Below are positions 20,922 through 29,229 of a DNA stretch of 64,000 nt, one piece after another. This stretch comes from Motilibacter rhizosphaerae (GTDB lineage Bacteria > Actinomycetota > Actinomycetes > Motilibacterales > Motilibacteraceae), in the NCBI RefSeq assembly GCF_004216915.1, contig NZ_SGXD01000005.1:186001-250000 (forward strand). The letters are read 5' to 3'. The notes beneath the pieces are model-generated. The model did no database searches and was not told where the DNA came from. It saw only the letters and a program-made list of their open reading frames with translations. The position numbers and the translations under genes are program-made. The stretch's first letter is position 1. Each line of letters begins with the position of its first letter.

Positions 20922-21752
20922 ATGACGACCTGGCTGCTCACCGGCTGCTCCACCGGCCTCGGCCGCGCGCTCGCCGAGGCGGTCCTCGAGCGGGGCGAGT
21001 CCGCCGTCGTGACGGCACGCGACCCGGGCACCGTGCGGGACCTGGCCGACGCGTACCCGGAGCGTGCTCTGGCGCTCCCGCTGGACGTGACCGACCCCGA
21101 GCAGGTCGCGGCGGCGGTCCGGGAGGCCGAGGCGCGGTTCGGCGGGATCGACGTGCTCGTCAACAACGCGGGCTACGGCTACCGCGCGGCCGTGGAGGAG
21201 GGCGAGGACGAGGCGGTGCAGCGGCTGTTCGCCACCAACCTGTTCGGCGCCGTCGCCATGGTCAAGGCCGTGCTGCCCGGCATGCGCGCGCGCCGCAGCG
21301 GCGCCGTGGTCAACATCTCGTCCATCGGTGCGATGGTCTGCCCGCCGGGCTCGGGCTACTACGCCGCGTCCAAGGCCGCGCTCGAGGGCATCTCGAGCTC
21401 CTTGCGCAAGGAGCTCCAGCCCCTCGGCATCGCCGTGGTCGCGGTCGAGCCCGGCGGCTTCCGCACCGACTTCTCCGGCCGCTCGCTGACCCAGGCGGCG
21501 ACGCCCATCGCCGACTACGCGGAGACCGCGGGCAAGCGGCGCAAGGAGAACGACACCGTGCACGGGACGCAGCCGGGCGACCCCGCGCGCGCCGCGCAGG
21601 CGATCATCACGGCCGTCACGTCGCCCGAGCCGCCCGCCATGCTCGTGCTGGGGAGCGACGCGCTCACCGCGTACGCCGCGGTGCTCGACGCGCAGCGCGC
21701 GGAGCTGGAGGCGTGGCGCGGGCTCAGCGCGTCGACGGACTTCCCGAGCTGA
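20922..21752 (+). CDS. SDR family oxidoreductase
   Basis: A 276-residue classical short-chain dehydrogenase. TGCSTGLGRALAEA is the cofactor motif, VNNAGYG the structural motif, and the catalytic Ser (VVNISSIGAM) with YYAASKAALEG the active site. The early aspartate/arginine TARDPG after strand 2 suggests NADP preference. GGAAGG lies upstream of ATG 20922. The last 29 bp overlap the convergent DyP peroxidase gene. A link to the redox island next door is possible but rests only on position. Confidence 0.87.
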   Translation: MTTWLLTGCSTGLGRALAEAVLERGESAVVTARDPGTVRDLADAYPERALALPLDVTDPEQVAAAVREAEARFGGIDVLVNNAGYGYRAAVEEGEDEAVQRLFATNLFGAVAMVKAVLPGMRARRSGAVVNISSIGAMVCPPGSGYYAASKAALEGISSSLRKELQPLGIAVVAVEPGGFRTDFSGRSLTQAATPIADYAETAGKRRKENDTVHGTQPGDPARAAQAIITAVTSPEPPAMLVLGSDALTAYAAVLDAQRAELEAWRGLSASTDFPS

Positions 21753-23127
21753 GCCAGCGCACGGCCCGCCGCCCCGGCAGGAAGAAGTACGCGCCGCCCC
21801 GCGGCGTGACGAACGACGGCAGGTCGCGGTAGCGGGTCCGCACCGGCACGCGCTGCACGGTGAAGTCGTGCCTTCCGCTGGTGTGGCCGCCGAGCAGCGG
21901 GTCGGGATCGGCGTACAGCGCGGAGAAGTTCGGGTTCATCGCCCACGTGTGCTGGACGAACTCGAACTGCCGCGCGAGGTCGGCGCACAGGCAGACGAAG
22001 TGCAGCCCCCGCTCCGGCTCGTCCGGACCGGCGGGCCCGAGCGCGGCGGCCCGGTCGAGGAAGGGGCCGTACTCCCTCCCGCGGCGCAGCAGGCGGTGGC
22101 GCTTCCCGACGGCGACCGACGTCGGTGTCCCCGGCTTCGGGGGCAGGGATTCCCGCGGGTTGGTGCGCCGGACGTGGGCACCCAGCGGGCAGCGCAGGCC
22201 CTGGGCGTCGGAGGCGTAGCCGAAGTCGTTGCTGCCGGCCGCCTCCGGGTCGTCGCGGTCGGGTGAGACGGCGAGCGCGGCCCCGCTGGGCCAGCGGCCG
22301 ACCATGCGAGCGGCGAGCCGCACCGACCCCGCGTCGTCGCCACCGGCGGCGGAGTCCACCCAGGACCAGAAGGCCCGCACGTCCTGGCGCAGCTGGCGCA
22401 GCACGAGGTACGACCCGTTGCGCCCGAGGTCGCGCAGCCCTGAGCCCCGGGAGGAGCGCGGCAGCAGGCCTCGCGGGTCCAGCGCGTCGGGGAGCAGCGG
22501 GCTCGCCGGACGCTGGCCGTGCTCGTTGTCGTAGCCGAGCACGAACTCACCCGGCGCGATGGTGTGCAGGGGCGTCGACGTCCGCGCCGTTCCGGCGGGC
22601 ACCGGTTGCGAAACACCGTCGGTGAAGCCGAAGTGCTCCACGGACCCGATGTCCTCGGTGTCGAGCACCGCGAGCACGCCGAGCCCCGCAAATGCGATGC
22701 CCGCGCGCAGCTCCGCGATCCGCTCGGCCAGCTCCTCGACCCCGGGGGCGTAGACGAGCAGCACGGCATCAGGGGCAGGCTGCCCCGGGCCGCCCCAGGC
22801 CCACTGCTCGGGCGCAGCCGCGCCCTCGTCGCCCAGCAGCCGGCGGCGGTGCGGGCTCGTCATGCCCTCCTGGAACTCCAGCGAGAACTGCCGGAGCACC
22901 TCCTCCGGGACACCGAGCCGGCGCAGTCCGCGGGGTGTGAGCGCGAGGTTGACGGCGTACGCGCCGGGCCTGTCCTCGCCGTAGGAGAGCGACGGCTCCA
23001 GACCGGCGAGCCACGTCCGCGCGCGAGACGTGTCGTCACCCAGCTCCAGCAGGATGTACGCCGCGGCGCGCAGCCGCCCGTACCCCTGGAAGACGATCGC
23101 CTGGATGTCGTCGCTCTCGAGTGTCAC
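21724..23127 (-). CDS. DyP-type haem peroxidase
   Basis: A 467-residue dye-decolourising peroxidase without a Tat or Sec signal, so cytoplasmic or carried by a partner. The family GxxDG motif is GFTDGVSQP, with the catalytic Asp. The proximal haem His is in GAHVRRTNPRESLPP, and FGYASDAQGLRCPLG precedes it. The N terminus (QAIVFQGYGRLRAAAYILLEL) is the first ferredoxin-like strand. GTG 23127 overlaps the upstream stop as GTGA, so translation is coupled to the unknown 413-residue protein. Last gene of a four-gene leftward operon with FAD oxidase, SnoaL-like and unknown membrane protein. Substrate unknown. Confidence 0.9.
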   Translation of the reverse strand: MTLESDDIQAIVFQGYGRLRAAAYILLELGDDTSRARTWLAGLEPSLSYGEDRPGAYAVNLALTPRGLRRLGVPEEVLRQFSLEFQEGMTSPHRRRLLGDEGAAAPEQWAWGGPGQPAPDAVLLVYAPGVEELAERIAELRAGIAFAGLGVLAVLDTEDIGSVEHFGFTDGVSQPVPAGTARTSTPLHTIAPGEFVLGYDNEHGQRPASPLLPDALDPRGLLPRSSRGSGLRDLGRNGSYLVLRQLRQDVRAFWSWVDSAAGGDDAGSVRLAARMVGRWPSGAALAVSPDRDDPEAAGSNDFGYASDAQGLRCPLGAHVRRTNPRESLPPKPGTPTSVAVGKRHRLLRRGREYGPFLDRAAALGPAGPDEPERGLHFVCLCADLARQFEFVQHTWAMNPNFSALYADPDPLLGGHTSGRHDFTVQRVPVRTRYRDLPSFVTPRGGAYFFLPGRRAVRWLSSGSPSTR

Positions 23128-24365
23128 AGCAGCTGCAGCCACTCCTGCGCCTCCTGCTCGCTCATCGGGCCCGACAGCCCGAGCCGCGCCCGCGCCCGCC
23201 GGTCGATCGTCGCGGCGGGCTGGTCGGGGTAGGCGGAGTACCAGACGGCGGTGGGGATCTGCGAGCCGCGGATGAACGCCTTGAAGCCCCGCTCGTCGCG
23301 CGCGCCGGCGAGGACGAGCCACCGCGTACGCGGGAAGCCCTGCTGGTAGCCGAAGACGGTGTTGAGCACCCAGGCGACCTGGTCCACGAAGTCGTTGTTG
23401 TAGCTCTCGAGGCTGCCGTCGTAGTAGCTGGTGAACAGCAGCCGCGACCCGACCCGCTGGAACCGCGCGAAGTGCACCGTCCGCAGGCCGGAGAGGCTGC
23501 CGTGGGTGAAGACGTGCCGGGCGGTGTAGTTCCCGACGAGCTGCGACATCCGCGCGCTCAGTGCCCAGAAGCGCCCGGGCTTCACCTCCGCGATGCTGGT
23601 GAAGGCGTTCTGCGCGCCGACGTCCTCCGCGTCGCCGAGCAGCGTCATCCGCTCGGGCTCGAGCACGGGCGGCACCACGTGCTGTCGCAGCTCGGTCACC
23701 CGGAGCGCGACCACCCAGGCCAGCAGCGCGGGCACGACCACGGGGGCGGACACGAGCAGCAGCGCGGGGACCGCGACCGCGTGAGCACCCTCGCGCAGCC
23801 GGAACAGCAGCCCGGGGCGCTCGGGCGGCTCCAGAGCCCACGCCAGGTCTGGGCGGGAGGCCACGAAGCGGCGTACCTCCTCCCGCACGGCGCGCGCGGT
23901 CGAGCCCGAGAAGTCCTGGCGGTCGAGGAAGTCCTCGATCTCCCGCACCAGCCGGACCTCACCGGTGACCTGGTCCACCGTGCGCCCCAGCACGTGGACG
24001 TAGGGCACCGAGGAGCGCTGGGCGCAGCGGCGCAGGAAGGCCCGGCGCGTCCGTGACCGCGGCTCGGCGGGGTAGCCCGCGCAGTGTCCGAAGAGCCGGT
24101 CGAGGCCCGCGCCGCACGCTCCGGCGAGGGCGCGTACGCGGAGGCGGGTCGGCGCGTCGCAGTCCAGCATGAGCACGAGCGACGGCGCGGGCGTGTCGTC
24201 GTCGAGCAGGAGCAGCCGCAGGAAGTGCGTGCCGGGCAGTGCCTCCAGGGGGAGGACGTCGTTCTGCGCCCCCGCCGCCTGCATCCCCGCCAGCACCTCG
24301 CGGAGCGCGGGCAGCCGACCAGGCGCCACCGGCGCGGAGAACGTCAGCAGCACCTGGTGCGGCAC
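23124..24365 (-). CDS. Unknown membrane-anchored protein with internally duplicated domain, coupled to DyP peroxidase
   Basis: I do not recognise a named family for these 413 residues. Two regions resemble each other. GAQN at 32-35, then PG at 44-45, HFxR at 47-50 and FGxxxGYP at 92-99 are echoed by GAQN at 250-253, PG at 263-264, HFxR at 298-301 and FGxxxGFP at 338-345. The second copy also has a YYDGSLESYNNDF segment. Between them, residues 197-222 form one hydrophobic span long enough for a membrane helix or re-entrant hairpin. The stop overlaps the DyP start by 4 bp and the SnoaL-like gene ends 8 bp upstream. A structural or electron-transfer partner of the peroxidase is an inference. Confidence 0.7.
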   Translation of the reverse strand: MPHQVLLTFSAPVAPGRLPALREVLAGMQAAGAQNDVLPLEALPGTHFLRLLLLDDDTPAPSLVLMLDCDAPTRLRVRALAGACGAGLDRLFGHCAGYPAEPRSRTRRAFLRRCAQRSSVPYVHVLGRTVDQVTGEVRLVREIEDFLDRQDFSGSTARAVREEVRRFVASRPDLAWALEPPERPGLLFRLREGAHAVAVPALLLVSAPVVVPALLAWVVALRVTELRQHVVPPVLEPERMTLLGDAEDVGAQNAFTSIAEVKPGRFWALSARMSQLVGNYTARHVFTHGSLSGLRTVHFARFQRVGSRLLFTSYYDGSLESYNNDFVDQVAWVLNTVFGYQQGFPRTRWLVLAGARDERGFKAFIRGSQIPTAVWYSAYPDQPAATIDRRARARLGLSGPMSEQEAQEWLQLL

Positions 24366-24373
24366 GGGACTCC

Positions 24374-24805
24374 CTAGAGCGGGTGGCGCAGGCCGCCGAG
24401 CTGCTCGACCAGCTCGAGGCGGTCGAAGGCGACGCGTACCTCGGTGATCTTGCCGTCGGCGACGTGGAAGATGTCGATGCCCGGGACGGAGACGTGCCGC
24501 TCGCTCACCGTGTGGCCGAGGAACGTCGCCTTGTGCGTGCCCGTCCAGGTGAAGCGCACCGCCGCGCGGTCGTCCTCCGCGAGGATGTCGTCGACGCTGA
24601 AGTGGACGTCGGGGAAGGCGCGGAAGAAGATCGTGAAGAAGCCGCGTACCTCCTCGAGCCCGTCGGCTCGGCCGCTGCCGACGATCGCCGGGTCGTGGAA
24701 GGCGATGTCGGGGGAGAAGAGCTCGTCGATCCGGCTGAGGTCCTGCTTGTTGGTGAGCAGGTCGAAGTAGCTCTGCGCCAGCGACCGGGCGTCAGAGGCG
24801 GACAC
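24374..24805 (-). CDS. SnoaL-like / ester cyclase family protein
   Basis: A 143-residue cone-shaped (NTF2-like) alpha+beta fold. LFSPDIAFHDP, the DGLEEVRGFFTIFFRAFPDVHFSV region and a C-terminal VADGKITEVRVAFD are characteristic of SnoaL polyketide cyclases and related ester cyclases. Whether this member is catalytic cannot be judged. Its ATG lies inside the last 14 bp of the FAD oxidase gene and its stop is 8 bp from the next gene, so it is part of the redox operon and may act on the oxidised product. Confidence 0.82.
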   Translation of the reverse strand: MSASDARSLAQSYFDLLTNKQDLSRIDELFSPDIAFHDPAIVGSGRADGLEEVRGFFTIFFRAFPDVHFSVDDILAEDDRAAVRFTWTGTHKATFLGHTVSERHVSVPGIDIFHVADGKITEVRVAFDRLELVEQLGGLRHPL

Positions 24806-26231
24806 GCTTGCCTGCCAGGTCGATGGACGCGTCGCGCTGGGTGCCGGGCTGGGTGGGGACCGTCCCGCCGGCGGGCGAGGCGAGCAGCTCGCGGAAGTAC
24901 GCGTTGAGCAGCCGGTCCTCGGGGTCGAAGCGCCGGCGGTAGCCCTCGAAGCGGGCGACCCGCTCCCCGAACGCCTTGTCGACCTGGGGGCGGGTGAGGA
25001 AGTTCGTCTGGTTGAACAGCGGCACCCCGCCCATCTGGCTGCACAGCTCGTTGTACTCCCGCAGGAACTGCTCCCACCCTTCGCTGCCGGTGGAGACCGG
25101 GTCGAAGGTGATGATGGTGCCGTCGTAGCTGTAGGAGAACAGCGAGCTGCGGTCGGAGAGGATCCGGTAGCCGACGCTCATGAGGTCGACGCGGTAGCCG
25201 GTGCGGCGGTAGTGCTCCTTGGTGAACTCGAAGTACCGCGTCAGGCAGTCGATGTAGCGGTCCTCCGGGAAGGCCCAGATGCTGAAGGTGTAGCGGCTGC
25301 TCCCGGACACCTCGGGGTAGCGGATCTGCTGCGCCTGCGGCAGGGTGTGCTTGCCGCGGACGAGGTTCGTCAGCGCGGCGCTGATGAGCCGGTTGTAGCC
25401 GTCGATGAGCATCCCGCGCAGCCGGCGGCTCGGCACCATCGTCGTGACCCGGTGGCCGAACAGCGGCGCGTAGTGGCTCCACACCGCGTCGCGCAGCCTC
25501 CACTGCCAGGTGCTGAGCTCGCGGGCGGGCGTCGGCTCGCCGTAGCGGCGCAGCTCGACGGTGATGAGGTCCTTGAACGGGTTGATGTAGAGCATCATCC
25601 CGGCGCCGCTCTCGCGCAGCGCCGGCAGCGCGGCGGCGAACTCCTCGAGGGTGAAGCGCTCGTGGTGGACGTCGAGCGCCGCCAGCCGCCGCACGCGGAA
25701 GGTCGCCTCGTAGACGACGCCGAACAGCCCGTAGCTCGAGCGCGCGACCTGGAGCAGGTCGGGGTCGCTGCCGTCGATCTCGACGAGCTCCCCGTCGGGC
25801 GTGACCATCTTGAGCACCATCGCGTACGACGCGACCTGCCCGAACTCGCCCTCCATGGAGGCGTCCTTCGTGCCCCCGGTGCAGGCGCTGCCGATGGTGA
25901 GGTTGCCGAGCTCGACGTTGACGAAGAACTGCAGACCCCGCTTCGCGAGCTCGAGGTTGACGTCCAGGTAGAGGGCGCCGGCCTGGGCGGTGACCGTGTC
26001 GTCACGGATCTCCACGATGCGGTCCATCTTCCGCATCACCAGCAGCGTCCCGCCCTCCGCGACGCCGCACGGGGTCGTCGAGTGGTTCGAGCCGACCGCG
26101 CGCACCGGGCTCGGGTAGCGCTCCTTGTCCTTCATCACGGCGACGATCTCGTCGACGCTCTGCACCTCGACCACGACCTGTGGCGAGGACGTGATGCTCC
26201 CGAACCAGTTGGTGACCGAGATCGTCTGCAC
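24792..26231 (-). CDS. FAD-linked oxidase (VAO/ALO-like)
   Basis: A 479-residue flavoprotein of the PCMH/VAO type, like sugar-1,4-lactone oxidases. The FAD-binding half has VRAVGSNHSTTPCGV and NLTIGSACTGGTKDAS. The C-terminal half has the ALO-type end (FEGYRRRFDPEDRLLNAYF). The usual histidyl-flavin site would be in the SNHS segment. GTG 26231 is preferred because GAGGAG stands 6 bp upstream and the family usually begins at TISVTNWFGS; ATG 26270 would add 13 acidic residues. First gene of the leftward operon, divergent from the small DUF4267-like gene. Product unknown; such enzymes yield H2O2, which could feed the DyP peroxidase. Confidence 0.85.
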   Translation of the reverse strand: MQTISVTNWFGSITSSPQVVVEVQSVDEIVAVMKDKERYPSPVRAVGSNHSTTPCGVAEGGTLLVMRKMDRIVEIRDDTVTAQAGALYLDVNLELAKRGLQFFVNVELGNLTIGSACTGGTKDASMEGEFGQVASYAMVLKMVTPDGELVEIDGSDPDLLQVARSSYGLFGVVYEATFRVRRLAALDVHHERFTLEEFAAALPALRESGAGMMLYINPFKDLITVELRRYGEPTPARELSTWQWRLRDAVWSHYAPLFGHRVTTMVPSRRLRGMLIDGYNRLISAALTNLVRGKHTLPQAQQIRYPEVSGSSRYTFSIWAFPEDRYIDCLTRYFEFTKEHYRRTGYRVDLMSVGYRILSDRSSLFSYSYDGTIITFDPVSTGSEGWEQFLREYNELCSQMGGVPLFNQTNFLTRPQVDKAFGERVARFEGYRRRFDPEDRLLNAYFRELLASPAGGTVPTQPGTQRDASIDLAGKRVRL

Positions 26232-26336
26232 GGCGTGCTCCTCGTCCTCGTCGACGGCCAGGACCAGCATGCGCAGGGCGGTCCGCGGCGGGGGAGGGCC
26301 GGGCGGTCGGCGTGCACGAAGGTGCAGGCGACGCCA

Positions 26337-26366
26337 TTGACACGGCTGGAGCGCGGGAGCCAGCGT
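26337..26366 (+). promoter_or_regulatory. Promoter of the DUF4267-like gene, leaderless
   Basis: TTGACA (26337-26342) is a perfect -35. After 18 bp comes CAGCGT (26361-26366), one base from the TAGCGT seen at other starts. Six bases later is ATG 26373. Confidence 0.5.
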
Positions 26367-26372
26367 CATGGC

Positions 26373-26744
26373 ATGGAGATGCGTCCCGACACCGCCGCCC
26401 GGGCCCTCGCCGCGGTTCGCCTCGTCAACGGCGCCCTGGGGCTCGTCGCCCCCGCGGTCCTCCTGCACGGGCTCGGGACCGATGCGCGGGCCGACCGCAG
26501 CGGCGTCTACCCCTTCCGCATGTTCGGGATCCGGACCGTCGTCCTCGGCGTCGACCTGTGGACGCAGCGTGGTGCCGCCGGCCGCGACGTACGCCGTCGA
26601 GCGGTGCTCATCCACGGCAGCGACGCGGTCATCGCCGCGGTGTCGGGGCTGCGCGGCGACCTGCCGCGGCGCGCCGCGCTGATGACGACCACGCTGTCGA
26701 CGGGCAACACCGTGCTGGCGCTGCTGGCCAACCGGGACGCCTGA
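26373..26744 (+). CDS. Small membrane protein, DUF4267-like
   Basis: A 123-residue protein with about three hydrophobic segments. It resembles DUF4267 in its R-L-V-N-G-A-L-G-L-V-A-P start, the YPFRMFGIRTVVLGVDL centre and a C-terminal TGNTVLALLANRDA. Function unknown. It has a promoter that places the ATG at the transcription start. It lies divergently from the FAD oxidase and converges on the haem peroxidase, with a palindromic terminator between. Confidence 0.6.
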   Translation: MEMRPDTAARALAAVRLVNGALGLVAPAVLLHGLGTDARADRSGVYPFRMFGIRTVVLGVDLWTQRGAAGRDVRRRAVLIHGSDAVIAAVSGLRGDLPRRAALMTTTLSTGNTVLALLANRDA

Positions 26745-26763
26745 GCAGCTGGTGCCTCGTCGG

Positions 26764-26812
26764 GGAGCGGAGCGCTCCGCTCCGCCCACGCGTACGGAGC
26801 GCTCCGCTCCGC
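26764..26812. terminator. Repeated GC palindrome, bidirectional terminator
   Basis: GGAGCGGAGC-GCTCCGCTCC (26764-26783) is a perfect 20-bp palindrome. A 17-bp part of it (26769-26785) is repeated directly at 26796-26812, itself containing the palindrome CGGAGC-GCTCCG. The element sits between two convergent genes, where either strand could fold into a long stem. No T-run. Confidence 0.55.
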
Positions 26813-26866
26813 GAGAAGGCACCCCGGGAGCGCCGCGAGTGCGGGACGGCGTGCGACGACGCCCGC

Positions 26867-28648
26867 TCAACCCCAGGGCTTGAACGCGTTGCTGGTCGCC
26901 GGCAGGTGCGGCGCGAGCGCCGGCAGGTGGCGCAGGAGCACCCCGCTCATCGTGGCGTCGTCGATCCACCGCGTGCCGAAGCGGGTGTAGACGCGGGCGT
27001 CGTAGTCACGGGTGAAGAAGCGGTCGCTGTTGAGCCGGCGGCTTGCCATGAGGATGAAGATGCGGAACGCCGTGTCGCTGAAGGCGAAGCCCGTCGGCCG
27101 CTCCTCCGCGAACATGCCGATCATGAGGTCGAGCTGCTCGACGTCGTCGTCGTAGAGCTCGCGCAGGTCGCGCACGGTCTGCGGGTGGTCGGACAGCTCC
27201 GCGAAGTCGCGTACGGGGTGGAGCCGGAGCAGCCGGCGGAACTCGTTGTAGCGCGGGACGCCGAACTCCCGGATCCGCAGCAGGTCGACCGCGGCGATGT
27301 CCATGGGCAGCCCGTTGTCAGGACGGGTGAACTGCTGGAGCCCGCGGGGGTAGTTGTGCAGGACGATCGCGCCGGCGTACGCCGTGCCGAAGCTGTAGAA
27401 GAGGTCCGCGAGCGAGCGCTCGGCGAAGACGGCCCGGCTGGCCGGCCCGGCGAGCTCGGCGAAGTCGACTGCCCGCTCGGGTGCGCCGGCGACCGACCGC
27501 AGGAGGTAGTCGTCGGGGACCAGCGGGTGCATCCGGTAGACCGCGGCGAACTCCTCGGTCAGCGAGTAGGGAACGCCGTAGTGGTCGGTGGGGGAGCCGG
27601 GGATGCCCGAGACCACCTCGCTGCGGCCGAGGCGGCCGACCGCCCGGTGCAGGCGCTCGCCCGCCACGCCGAACCAGTTGGCGCGCATGGCGTACTCCGT
27701 CGTGGGGTGCGCGATGACGGCCGGCGTCCACTCGATGGTGTGGATCTTGGCGGCGACGGCCGCGTTGATGAGCCGGGCCTTGTCGAACAGCTGCTGGTCG
27801 GTCCACGACGGGTGCTCGGCCCGCAGGCCGTCGCAGATGGCGTTGTGCTCCAGGGCGAACAGGCTGGCCATCATCCCGAGGCCGACCCACCAGCCGGGGA
27901 CCCGGGTGACGTCCGCCTCCGGATCGTCGTCGGGCAGCGGCATCACCGATCCGGGCGCGATGGCGAGCCGGCCGCCCTGGTGAGTGCGGATCCGCTGCTG
28001 CTGCGCTTCGGTCGTGCCGTAGACCGAGGAGAGGTCCCACCAGTGCGTGAGCGTGTTGACGAAGGTCGGCGTCCCCTCGGTGCCGGGCGGACGGGTCGGG
28101 TCGGGGATCGTGCGCGGCACGACCATCGGCTGCTGCGGGAAGGGGTCGTCCGCCGAGAGGGGGACGCGGTAGCCCGCGTCGGCGTCCCCGCTGCCGTGGC
28201 TGAACCAGTCCTTGACCATGAACTGCAGCCACGCGGCGACCAGGACGTTGACCGTCGTAGCGGGCTGGAACTCCGTGCGGGTCAGCAGCCGGCGCGACAC
28301 CTCGCGCGGGTTCGGGTGCAGCAGGTGGTCCTCGGGCCGGGGGTCCACTGCGGCGAGCGGGACGTTGCGGCCGAACCGCGTACCCGCCGCTCCCATCCAC
28401 GGGTCGGAGGGGTCGTTGCGCGTCCCGTCCGCCGAGCGCGCCTCCGGGTCGCCCGGAGGCGGCACCGGGCGCGGCAGCTGGGGCACGATGCCGGTGTCGT
28501 GGAGGTTGTGCCGGCGCAGCTCGTTGCGCAGGCCGATGAGCACGCCGAGCGCGACTGGTCGCGGCAGCCGGTCCCAGCCGTAGCGGCGGTCCAGCCGCGT
28601 CGATGCCGCGTCGAACAGTCGCCAGCCGATCCCCGAGCGGTACGCCAC
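26867..28648 (-). CDS. Animal-type haem peroxidase, alpha-dioxygenase/cyclooxygenase-like, atypical distal residue
   Basis: A 593-residue peroxidase of the myeloperoxidase-cyclooxygenase superfamily. YRMH (Y371, H374) before PLVPDDYLL matches the catalytic Tyr and proximal haem His of plant alpha-dioxygenases. LFALEHNAICDGL and HTIEWTPAVI are also family motifs. In the distal segment QFMVKDWFSHG, Lys146 stands where the distal His of THD/HDW motifs is expected (codon AAG, 28211-28213). GTG 28648 is chosen because TAGCGT ends 7 bp upstream; GTG 28672 would add 8 residues. There is no signal peptide. Fatty-acid oxygenation is the likely chemistry by family, but the altered distal site makes this uncertain. 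Confidence 0.82.
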   Translation of the reverse strand: MAYRSGIGWRLFDAASTRLDRRYGWDRLPRPVALGVLIGLRNELRRHNLHDTGIVPQLPRPVPPPGDPEARSADGTRNDPSDPWMGAAGTRFGRNVPLAAVDPRPEDHLLHPNPREVSRRLLTRTEFQPATTVNVLVAAWLQFMVKDWFSHGSGDADAGYRVPLSADDPFPQQPMVVPRTIPDPTRPPGTEGTPTFVNTLTHWWDLSSVYGTTEAQQQRIRTHQGGRLAIAPGSVMPLPDDDPEADVTRVPGWWVGLGMMASLFALEHNAICDGLRAEHPSWTDQQLFDKARLINAAVAAKIHTIEWTPAVIAHPTTEYAMRANWFGVAGERLHRAVGRLGRSEVVSGIPGSPTDHYGVPYSLTEEFAAVYRMHPLVPDDYLLRSVAGAPERAVDFAELAGPASRAVFAERSLADLFYSFGTAYAGAIVLHNYPRGLQQFTRPDNGLPMDIAAVDLLRIREFGVPRYNEFRRLLRLHPVRDFAELSDHPQTVRDLRELYDDDVEQLDLMIGMFAEERPTGFAFSDTAFRIFILMASRRLNSDRFFTRDYDARVYTRFGTRWIDDATMSGVLLRHLPALAPHLPATSNAFKPWG

Positions 28649-28655
28649 CCGCCCG

Positions 28656-28661
28656 ACGCTA
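28656..28661 (-). promoter_or_regulatory. -10 element of the haem peroxidase gene, leaderless
   Basis: Minus-strand TAGCGT, seven bases, then GTG 28648. It supports the shorter start over the in-frame GTG at 28672, which lies upstream of this element. No clear -35. Confidence 0.45.
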
Positions 28662-28775
28662 GGGAGGCGCACGCCCGGGCGGCAGGGGGAGGTGCCGAGC
28701 CCTGCCCGAAGGTGCGGCGGCGACAGGCCGGCGAGCTGGTCAGGATCCGAGAAGCCGTACGGGTCCCGCGCGTCC

Positions 28776-28781
28776 TAGCGT
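28776..28781 (+). promoter_or_regulatory. -10 element of the VOC/uvrA-like unit, leaderless
   Basis: TAGCGT, seven bases, then ATG 28789. The in-frame GTG at 28780 overlaps the element and is therefore unlikely to be the start. Confidence 0.5.
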
Positions 28782-28788
28782 GAGCGGC

Positions 28789-29229
28789 ATGGACCTCACC
28801 ATCGCCTCCAGCTTCCTCCCGCACTCCGACCCGGAGGCCTCCCTCGCGTTCTACCGCGACGTCCTCGGCTTCGAGGTCCGCGGCGACGTCGGCTACGGCG
28901 ACATGCGCTGGATCACCGTCGGCTCGCCCGAGCAGCCGGGCACCTCGATCGTGCTGCACCCGCCGATGGCGTACCCCGGGCTCACCGAGGACGAGCAGCG
29001 CACCATCGCCGAGATGATGGCGAAGGGGACCTACGCCATCGTCGTGCTCGCGACCCCGGACCTCGAGAAGACCTTCGACCAGCTCCAGGCCGCCGGCGCG
29101 GACGTGGTGCAGGAGCCGACCGACCAGCCGTACGGCATCCGCGACGCCGCGGTGCGCGACCCCGCCGGCAATCTGGTCCGGATCAACCACGTGCCGACCG
29201 ACCGCACGCCGTCGGACCGGGTGGGCTAG
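28789..29229 (+). CDS. VOC superfamily (glyoxalase-like) protein
   Basis: A 146-residue single-domain VOC protein. The first module begins ASSFLPHSDPEASLAFYRDV and LGFEVRGDVGYGDMRWITV. The second ends with YGIRDAAVRDPAGNLVRI, where the metal Glu of true glyoxalases is replaced by other residues. Function in the family ranges from glyoxalase to antibiotic binding. The stop is 3 bp before the UvrA-like gene, so the two form an operon. Pairing with a UvrA2/DrrC-like protein suggests a resistance role, but this is inference. Confidence 0.85.
   Translation: MDLTIASSFLPHSDPEASLAFYRDVLGFEVRGDVGYGDMRWITVGSPEQPGTSIVLHPPMAYPGLTEDEQRTIAEMMAKGTYAIVVLATPDLEKTFDQLQAAGADVVQEPTDQPYGIRDAAVRDPAGNLVRINHVPTDRTPSDRVG

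Follow-up and report, generated by a model that had tools for sequence, protein, structure and literature searches.

A divergent DyP-type peroxidase is paired with a duplicated barrel-like protein, often beside candidate lipid oxygenases, in diverse bacteria

Several described systems resemble parts of a locus found in a 64,000 nt stretch of the genome of Motilibacter rhizosphaerae (the whole stretch is referred to as the window), which contains genes for a DyP-type peroxidase (DyP), a 413-aa protein (hereafter UNK) and an alpha-dioxygenase homolog (aDOX). Fatty acid alpha-dioxygenases from rice (4kvj) and cyanobacteria (CalDOX and LepDOX; PMC8720084) have in common with the window aDOX a catalytic Tyr, a proximal His and carboxylate-binding residues, and the distal haem His is only partially conserved across the family (PMC8720084). 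As described in the citing passages (Brash et al., 2014, via PMC13049297 and PMC9579011), Nostoc punctiforme possesses a COX-like linoleate 10S-dioxygenase and a catalase-related hydroperoxide lyase. This tandem places a haem peroxidase of the COX superfamily beside a catalase-related haemoprotein, as in many of the relatives' loci examined here, for which we propose the same kind of chemistry; conversely, the window contains an aDOX homolog and its genome (G000) gave no catalase-related match, in a search that had no positive control among its 21 genomes. The passages citing the Nostoc tandem make no mention of UNK, DyP, or the families that we designate C3 and S150. Fungal dioxygenase-P450 fusions (linoleate diol and allene oxide synthases) likewise join haem oxygenases in one chain, although the bacterial chain described below is P450-UNK-DyP and has no dioxygenase domain. 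The closest solved DyPs (8re3 and 8re2, "peroxidase, putative") share the GxxDG motif, proximal His and distal Arg with the window DyP, whereas the window type is always beside or fused to UNK and is weak to general DyP models. Lastly, WhiE-ORFI and AbxO (9lmn and 9ltx) display the tandem dimeric alpha/beta-barrel fold that is predicted for UNK; nevertheless, WhiE-ORFI and UNK are only about 11% identical and have no sequence family in common, and UNK differs from both in an inserted hydrophobic segment and in its constant DyP partner. We found no description of the UNK-DyP module, or of a P450-DyP fusion, in the open-licence literature.

The redox island of the window comprises four minus-strand genes coding for an FAD-linked VAO/ALO-type oxidoreductase (about 493 aa, 24792..about 26270; identified by Pfam and its GSNHS motif), a SnoaL-like protein of NTF2 fold (143 aa, 24374..24805; Pfam SnoaL, 1e-33, 116.3 bits against a cut-off of 28.4), UNK (23124..24365; characterized by its tandem barrel model and its neighborhoods) and a DyP-type haem peroxidase of a divergent subtype (467 aa, 21724..23127; family profiles and catalytic residues). 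In the window sequence, the FAD and SnoaL genes overlap by 14 bp, the SnoaL and UNK genes are separated by 8 bp, and the UNK and DyP genes overlap by 4 bp (GTGA), so the four genes likely form a single transcript. The plus-strand gene for C3, a hydrophobic membrane protein of about 122 aa (26376..26744; sequence, family map and alignment), points away from the FAD gene and toward the minus-strand aDOX gene (26867..28648/28672; An_peroxidase by Pfam, and PDB match), which probably starts at 28648, the homolog matches beginning at residue 9 of the ORF. Because C3 lies in the interval of some 600 bp that separates aDOX from the operon, aDOX is probably a separate transcription unit. A previous sequence-only reading had placed the five minus-strand genes at about these coordinates, and both its family assignments, now backed by profile and PDB matches, and its single four-gene transcript stand; it also correctly put aDOX upstream on the same strand, but it saw only a promoter in the intergenic region and overlooked C3. 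A scan of positions 26200-28900 for promoter and terminator consensus sequences returned nothing, as is expected of such a scan in DNA of 74% G+C. Two copies of a GC-rich inverted repeat, GGAGCGGAGCGCTCCGCTCC, occur in 26745-26866, where the C3 and aDOX genes converge; the repeat, absent from the terminator-scan list, is possibly a two-way terminator for both. By inspection, the flanking genes (SDR, VOC protein, UvrA-like ATPase, argininosuccinate synthase-like) are unrelated to the island.

Scanning genomes for UNK alone confirmed 286 relatives, the best 80 of which, taken with up to 10 kb of flanking sequence, were compared together with the window, its congener and six plasmid loci. In all of these 88 loci, which include 13 or more from Streptomyces and other close kin, so that counts of loci are not independent events, a DyP gene directly follows UNK on the same strand, with a median gap of 46 bp and five cases of fusion. 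Additionally, an independent sample of 396 Actinomycetota genomes contained the window plus four divergent UNK matches, with DyP again directly after UNK and on its strand in 4/4, and UNK therefore adjoins or is fused to DyP in 92/92 loci. Since loci were picked by UNK and not by DyP, this pairing is not a selection effect, and the base rates in sampled genomes of the phylum are 37/198 for DyP, 5/396 for UNK and 11/296 for aDOX; the association of UNK and DyP is far beyond chance. According to their record titles, the best 80 loci belong to about nine phyla (Actinomycetota, Chloroflexota, Cyanobacteriota, Pseudomonadota, Acidobacteriota, Bacteroidota, Gemmatimonadota, Myxococcota and, in a MAG, Desulfuromonadales).

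In tblastn comparisons against plasmids, the C-terminal half of UNK matched parts of proteins whose annotation was cytochrome P450 or DyP. Four of the five fused loci code for P450-UNK-DyP single chains of 1423-1620 aa, on plasmids from Pararhizobium, Sulfitobacter and Novosphingobium, and the Rhizobium locus codes for a UNK-DyP single chain; in Skermanella, P450, UNK and DyP are encoded by three adjacent but separate genes. In three loci (L004, L007 and L008), the P450-UNK-DyP chains are preceded by genes whose products, perhaps regulators, are SARP-like or of adenylate-cyclase type and share TPR-like C-terminal halves. The I-helix acid is lost in the five alphaproteobacterial linked P450s, whereas several other linked P450s keep D/E-T, and we thus rejected the idea that all linked P450s are hydroperoxide enzymes.

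UNK has no match to Pfam, NCBIfam or PHROG families and no credible sequence match in the PDB. Its N- and C-terminal halves are homologous (profile alignment, 99.4% probability, E 3e-21) and are separated by a hydrophobic stretch at about residues 196-222, with an equivalent in 63/63 homologs, which agrees with its previous description as a duplicated membrane protein. Residues H47 and H298, each within the [V/T]HFAR motif of its half, are invariant in the 63 sequences, as are D70, E225, E247, D248, N253, D316-S318 and E320-Y322; having one invariant His per half, the tandem barrel may itself be catalytic. The AlphaFold model (pLDDT 93.3, pTM 0.90) is a tandem dimeric alpha/beta barrel whose nearest solved fold is WhiE-ORFI (9lmn; VIA Z 13.3 over 223 residues, 4.3 A; Foldseek E 1.1e-4), followed by AbxO (Z 10.2), both being ABM/SchA-like barrels of polyketide pathways; UNK thus resembles these barrels by fold and not by sequence family. 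In this model both halves build one barrel and would consequently lie on the same side of the membrane, so that a single membrane crossing is a less likely arrangement than a hairpin or a monotopic anchor. Inspection of UNK, DyP and aDOX revealed no evident signal peptide.

The window DyP retains the GxxDG Asp, the proximal His and the distal Arg (D174, H322 and R352 in the 471-residue numbering of P0004), and these catalytic residues are conserved in all rows without gaps among the 88 loci. Its match to general models is borderline (Dyp_perox_C, 6e-4, 20.1 bits against a cut-off of 20.0; TIGR01413, 4e-28, 98.6 against 100.5), and its best PDB match is 8re3 (1e-51). A second, ordinary DyP is encoded away from the island (C1:118312-119352, minus strand; 314 bits to TIGR01413). 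The possibility that the DyP is encapsulin cargo was rejected, the shell gene (PF04454) being absent from G000 in a search with positive controls in 3/14 genomes.

The aDOX homolog matches An_peroxidase (5e-103), its best PDB sequence match being rice alpha-dioxygenase (4kvj, 1.5e-112), and keeps in its YRMH motif the catalytic Tyr379 and the proximal His382 (numbering of the 601-aa ORF). Likewise, H311, T316 and R546 align with H311, T316 and R559 of the rice enzyme. We take these rice residues to be those that bind the fatty-acid carboxylate. The window aDOX differs from the rice enzyme in that the distal haem His (H157 in rice) is replaced by Lys154, as it is by Arg or Lys in most actinobacterial relatives; at this position the alignment rows contain Arg (26), Lys (4) or His (18), with the window counted twice (REF and WIN). 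Actinobacterial relatives often have this substitution, whether UNK is present or not, and it was therefore rejected as a mark of UNK-linked aDOX. Nor is aDOX an obligate part of the module: the congener/sister genome (G001) carries the operon and C3 with no aDOX nearby, its own aDOX being on another contig, and aDOX is present without UNK in G002 and G003, as in most aDOX-bearing Actinomycetota.

Neighboring genes were counted within about 10 kb in the 88 loci using HMMs built from the loci, with family identities assigned partly by Pfam and, for the RoxA-like proteins, by sequence reading, since their sole Pfam matches, to cytochrome c, were weak. The most frequent neighbors were S150 (61 loci), catalase-related proteins (50), aDOX-type proteins (49), C3 (28) and P450 (20), followed by GMC oxidoreductases (18), RoxA-like dihaem proteins (12), patatin (11), DoxX (7), the FAD enzyme (6) and SnoaL (5). 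Therefore, from the set of genes singled out by the sequence-only reading as potentially co-occurring with UNK, DyP is a constant partner and the aDOX-type haem protein is often near, but the FAD enzyme is found in few loci. Only 10/88 loci, several of them short contigs, had none of aDOX, P450, GMC or RoxA-like genes. In 56 loci the gene immediately upstream of UNK is S150, and in 36 the one immediately downstream of DyP is catalase-related. The S150 model, with a pLDDT of only 75.7, is nearest to Tcur_1030 and then to fatty-acid-, bile-acid- and retinoid-binding proteins and lipocalins. S150 was not found in the window's genome, where the SnoaL gene occupies the position that the calycin-like S150 gene has in most other loci; S150 homologs also occur in two genomes of the same family in which UNK was not found (L098 in G002 and L099 in G003). 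The catalase-related proteins keep RxxxY (invariant R379 and Y383 of alignment A3) and, as judged by motif only, have Asn or Gln at the position of the catalase distal His. The C3 representative has no Pfam match and no family; C3 recurs beside aDOX among the loci compared (28 loci), and it also adjoins an aDOX gene in a contig without visible UNK (L111, G018).

Two further arrangements were observed. In seven gammaproteobacterial loci (L048, L051, L062, L073, L079, L081 and L084), the An_peroxidase is much longer (about 970-1000 aa) and has a distal His, and S150-UNK-DyP has a different catalase-related gene on each side. In eight loci from Acidobacteriota and others (L056, L058, L061, L064, L067, L072, L080 and L087), a GMC oxidoreductase and a RoxA-like protein stand in the place of aDOX, hinting at a different first substrate.

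We consider it reasonably plausible that UNK and DyP constitute a membrane-associated cytoplasmic unit handling (hydro)peroxides that come from neighboring lipid oxygenases. UNK would sit on the membrane via its hydrophobic segment and would dock DyP there, the docking and the membrane side being our proposal. In most hosts, a neighboring enzyme (aDOX-type, P450, or GMC plus RoxA-like) would oxygenate lipids or make lipid hydroperoxides, which DyP and UNK could consume or convert, with a presumed lipid substrate and direction of flux; a catalase-related haemoprotein would work beside the unit in most hosts, and S150 could be a calycin-like carrier. In the window, aDOX would be the first enzyme, putatively oxidizing fatty acids at C2, and the FAD enzyme and SnoaL might provide a lineage-specific tailoring that replaces S150 and the catalase-related protein. 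The constant adjacency of UNK and DyP with its cases of fusion, the tandem barrel model of UNK, the recurrence of neighbors of lipid-oxygenase type, the conservation in aDOX of the putative fatty-acid-carboxylate residues, the resemblance of the S150 model to fatty-acid-binding proteins and lipocalins, and the intact DyP active site support this proposal, and the precedent of the Nostoc dioxygenase and lyase, as cited, makes a lipid reading natural. Conversely, P450, GMC and RoxA-like enzymes are not lipid-specific. RoxA, for one, cleaves rubber. The unlinked aDOX of G001, the aDOX genes without UNK in G002, G003 and most aDOX-bearing Actinomycetota, the lack of S150 and of a catalase-related match in searches of the window's genome, and the identity of only about 11% between UNK and WhiE-ORFI also count against this proposal. 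More tentatively, a membrane-bound peroxidase complex not yet described, with UNK and DyP as its two obligate subunits, might be present in about nine phyla and take hydroperoxides from interchangeable lipid oxygenases; in some alphaproteobacteria, the single P450-UNK-DyP chain would then hold two haem sites and parallel the fusions of dioxygenase and P450 in fungi.

The same families might instead serve detoxification, with the module and the catalase-related protein removing lipid peroxides or H2O2 from neighboring oxygenases and building no product. DyP and catalase-related proteins do belong to peroxide-handling families, and the distribution of the module is sparse but broad; however, in the motif comparison the catalytic distal His is missing from the catalase-related proteins, an ordinary detoxifying DyP is encoded elsewhere in G000, and the P450 fusion fits product formation better, so that we regard this explanation as unlikely. 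We find it harder still to sustain the relay put forward in the sequence-only reading, by which H2O2 from the FAD oxidase would feed DyP, with the membrane protein just localizing the pair. The FAD enzyme (FAD_binding_4, 2e-20, plus ALO) has in its GSNHS the His of a covalent-FAD-type motif, kept in the four closest homologs. In favor of the relay, the FAD enzyme shares an operon with DyP and belongs to a VAO/ALO family that includes oxidases, and GMC oxidoreductases could serve the same role in 18/88 loci. Yet the FAD enzyme and SnoaL occur together in only 5/88 loci (the window, its congener, Nocardioides insulae, Marmoricola and a Dehalococcoidia MAG), which led us to reject the relay as a general mechanism, and in most loci with aDOX or P450 neither of the two flavin oxidoreductase types searched for is present. 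A rule based on an O2 "gatekeeper" position applies to related flavoproteins, and this putative position is Val in all close relatives, by a weak alignment, which makes H2O2 production by the FAD enzyme doubtful.

Alternatively, the SnoaL fold, the SchA-like barrel and the EncM/ALO-type flavoprotein might be parts of an aromatic polyketide pathway, and a role in polyketide-type tailoring would agree with the closest folds of UNK being the polyketide enzymes WhiE-ORFI and AbxO, with the presence of a SnoaL family member and with a weak PDB match of the FAD enzyme to EncM. This role is highly improbable and was rejected, because the contig of the window has no ketosynthase, the three matches in the genome being on the contigs numbered C2 and C3; additionally, the neighboring genes are of housekeeping type by inspection.

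Under the proposal of a membrane-associated unit for (hydro)peroxides, UNK looks like an undescribed and widely shared part of the bacterial lipid-oxidation machinery, and three nameless families (UNK, S150 and C3) gain a context among peroxide- and lipid-oxidation enzymes. The cellular role of bacterial DyP peroxidases is, to our knowledge, a long-open question, for which the strict pairing with UNK and the natural fusions offer a handle. Likewise, these results point to oxylipin-type chemistry in bacteria beyond the cyanobacteria, and to aDOX enzymes with Lys or Arg at the position of the distal haem His.
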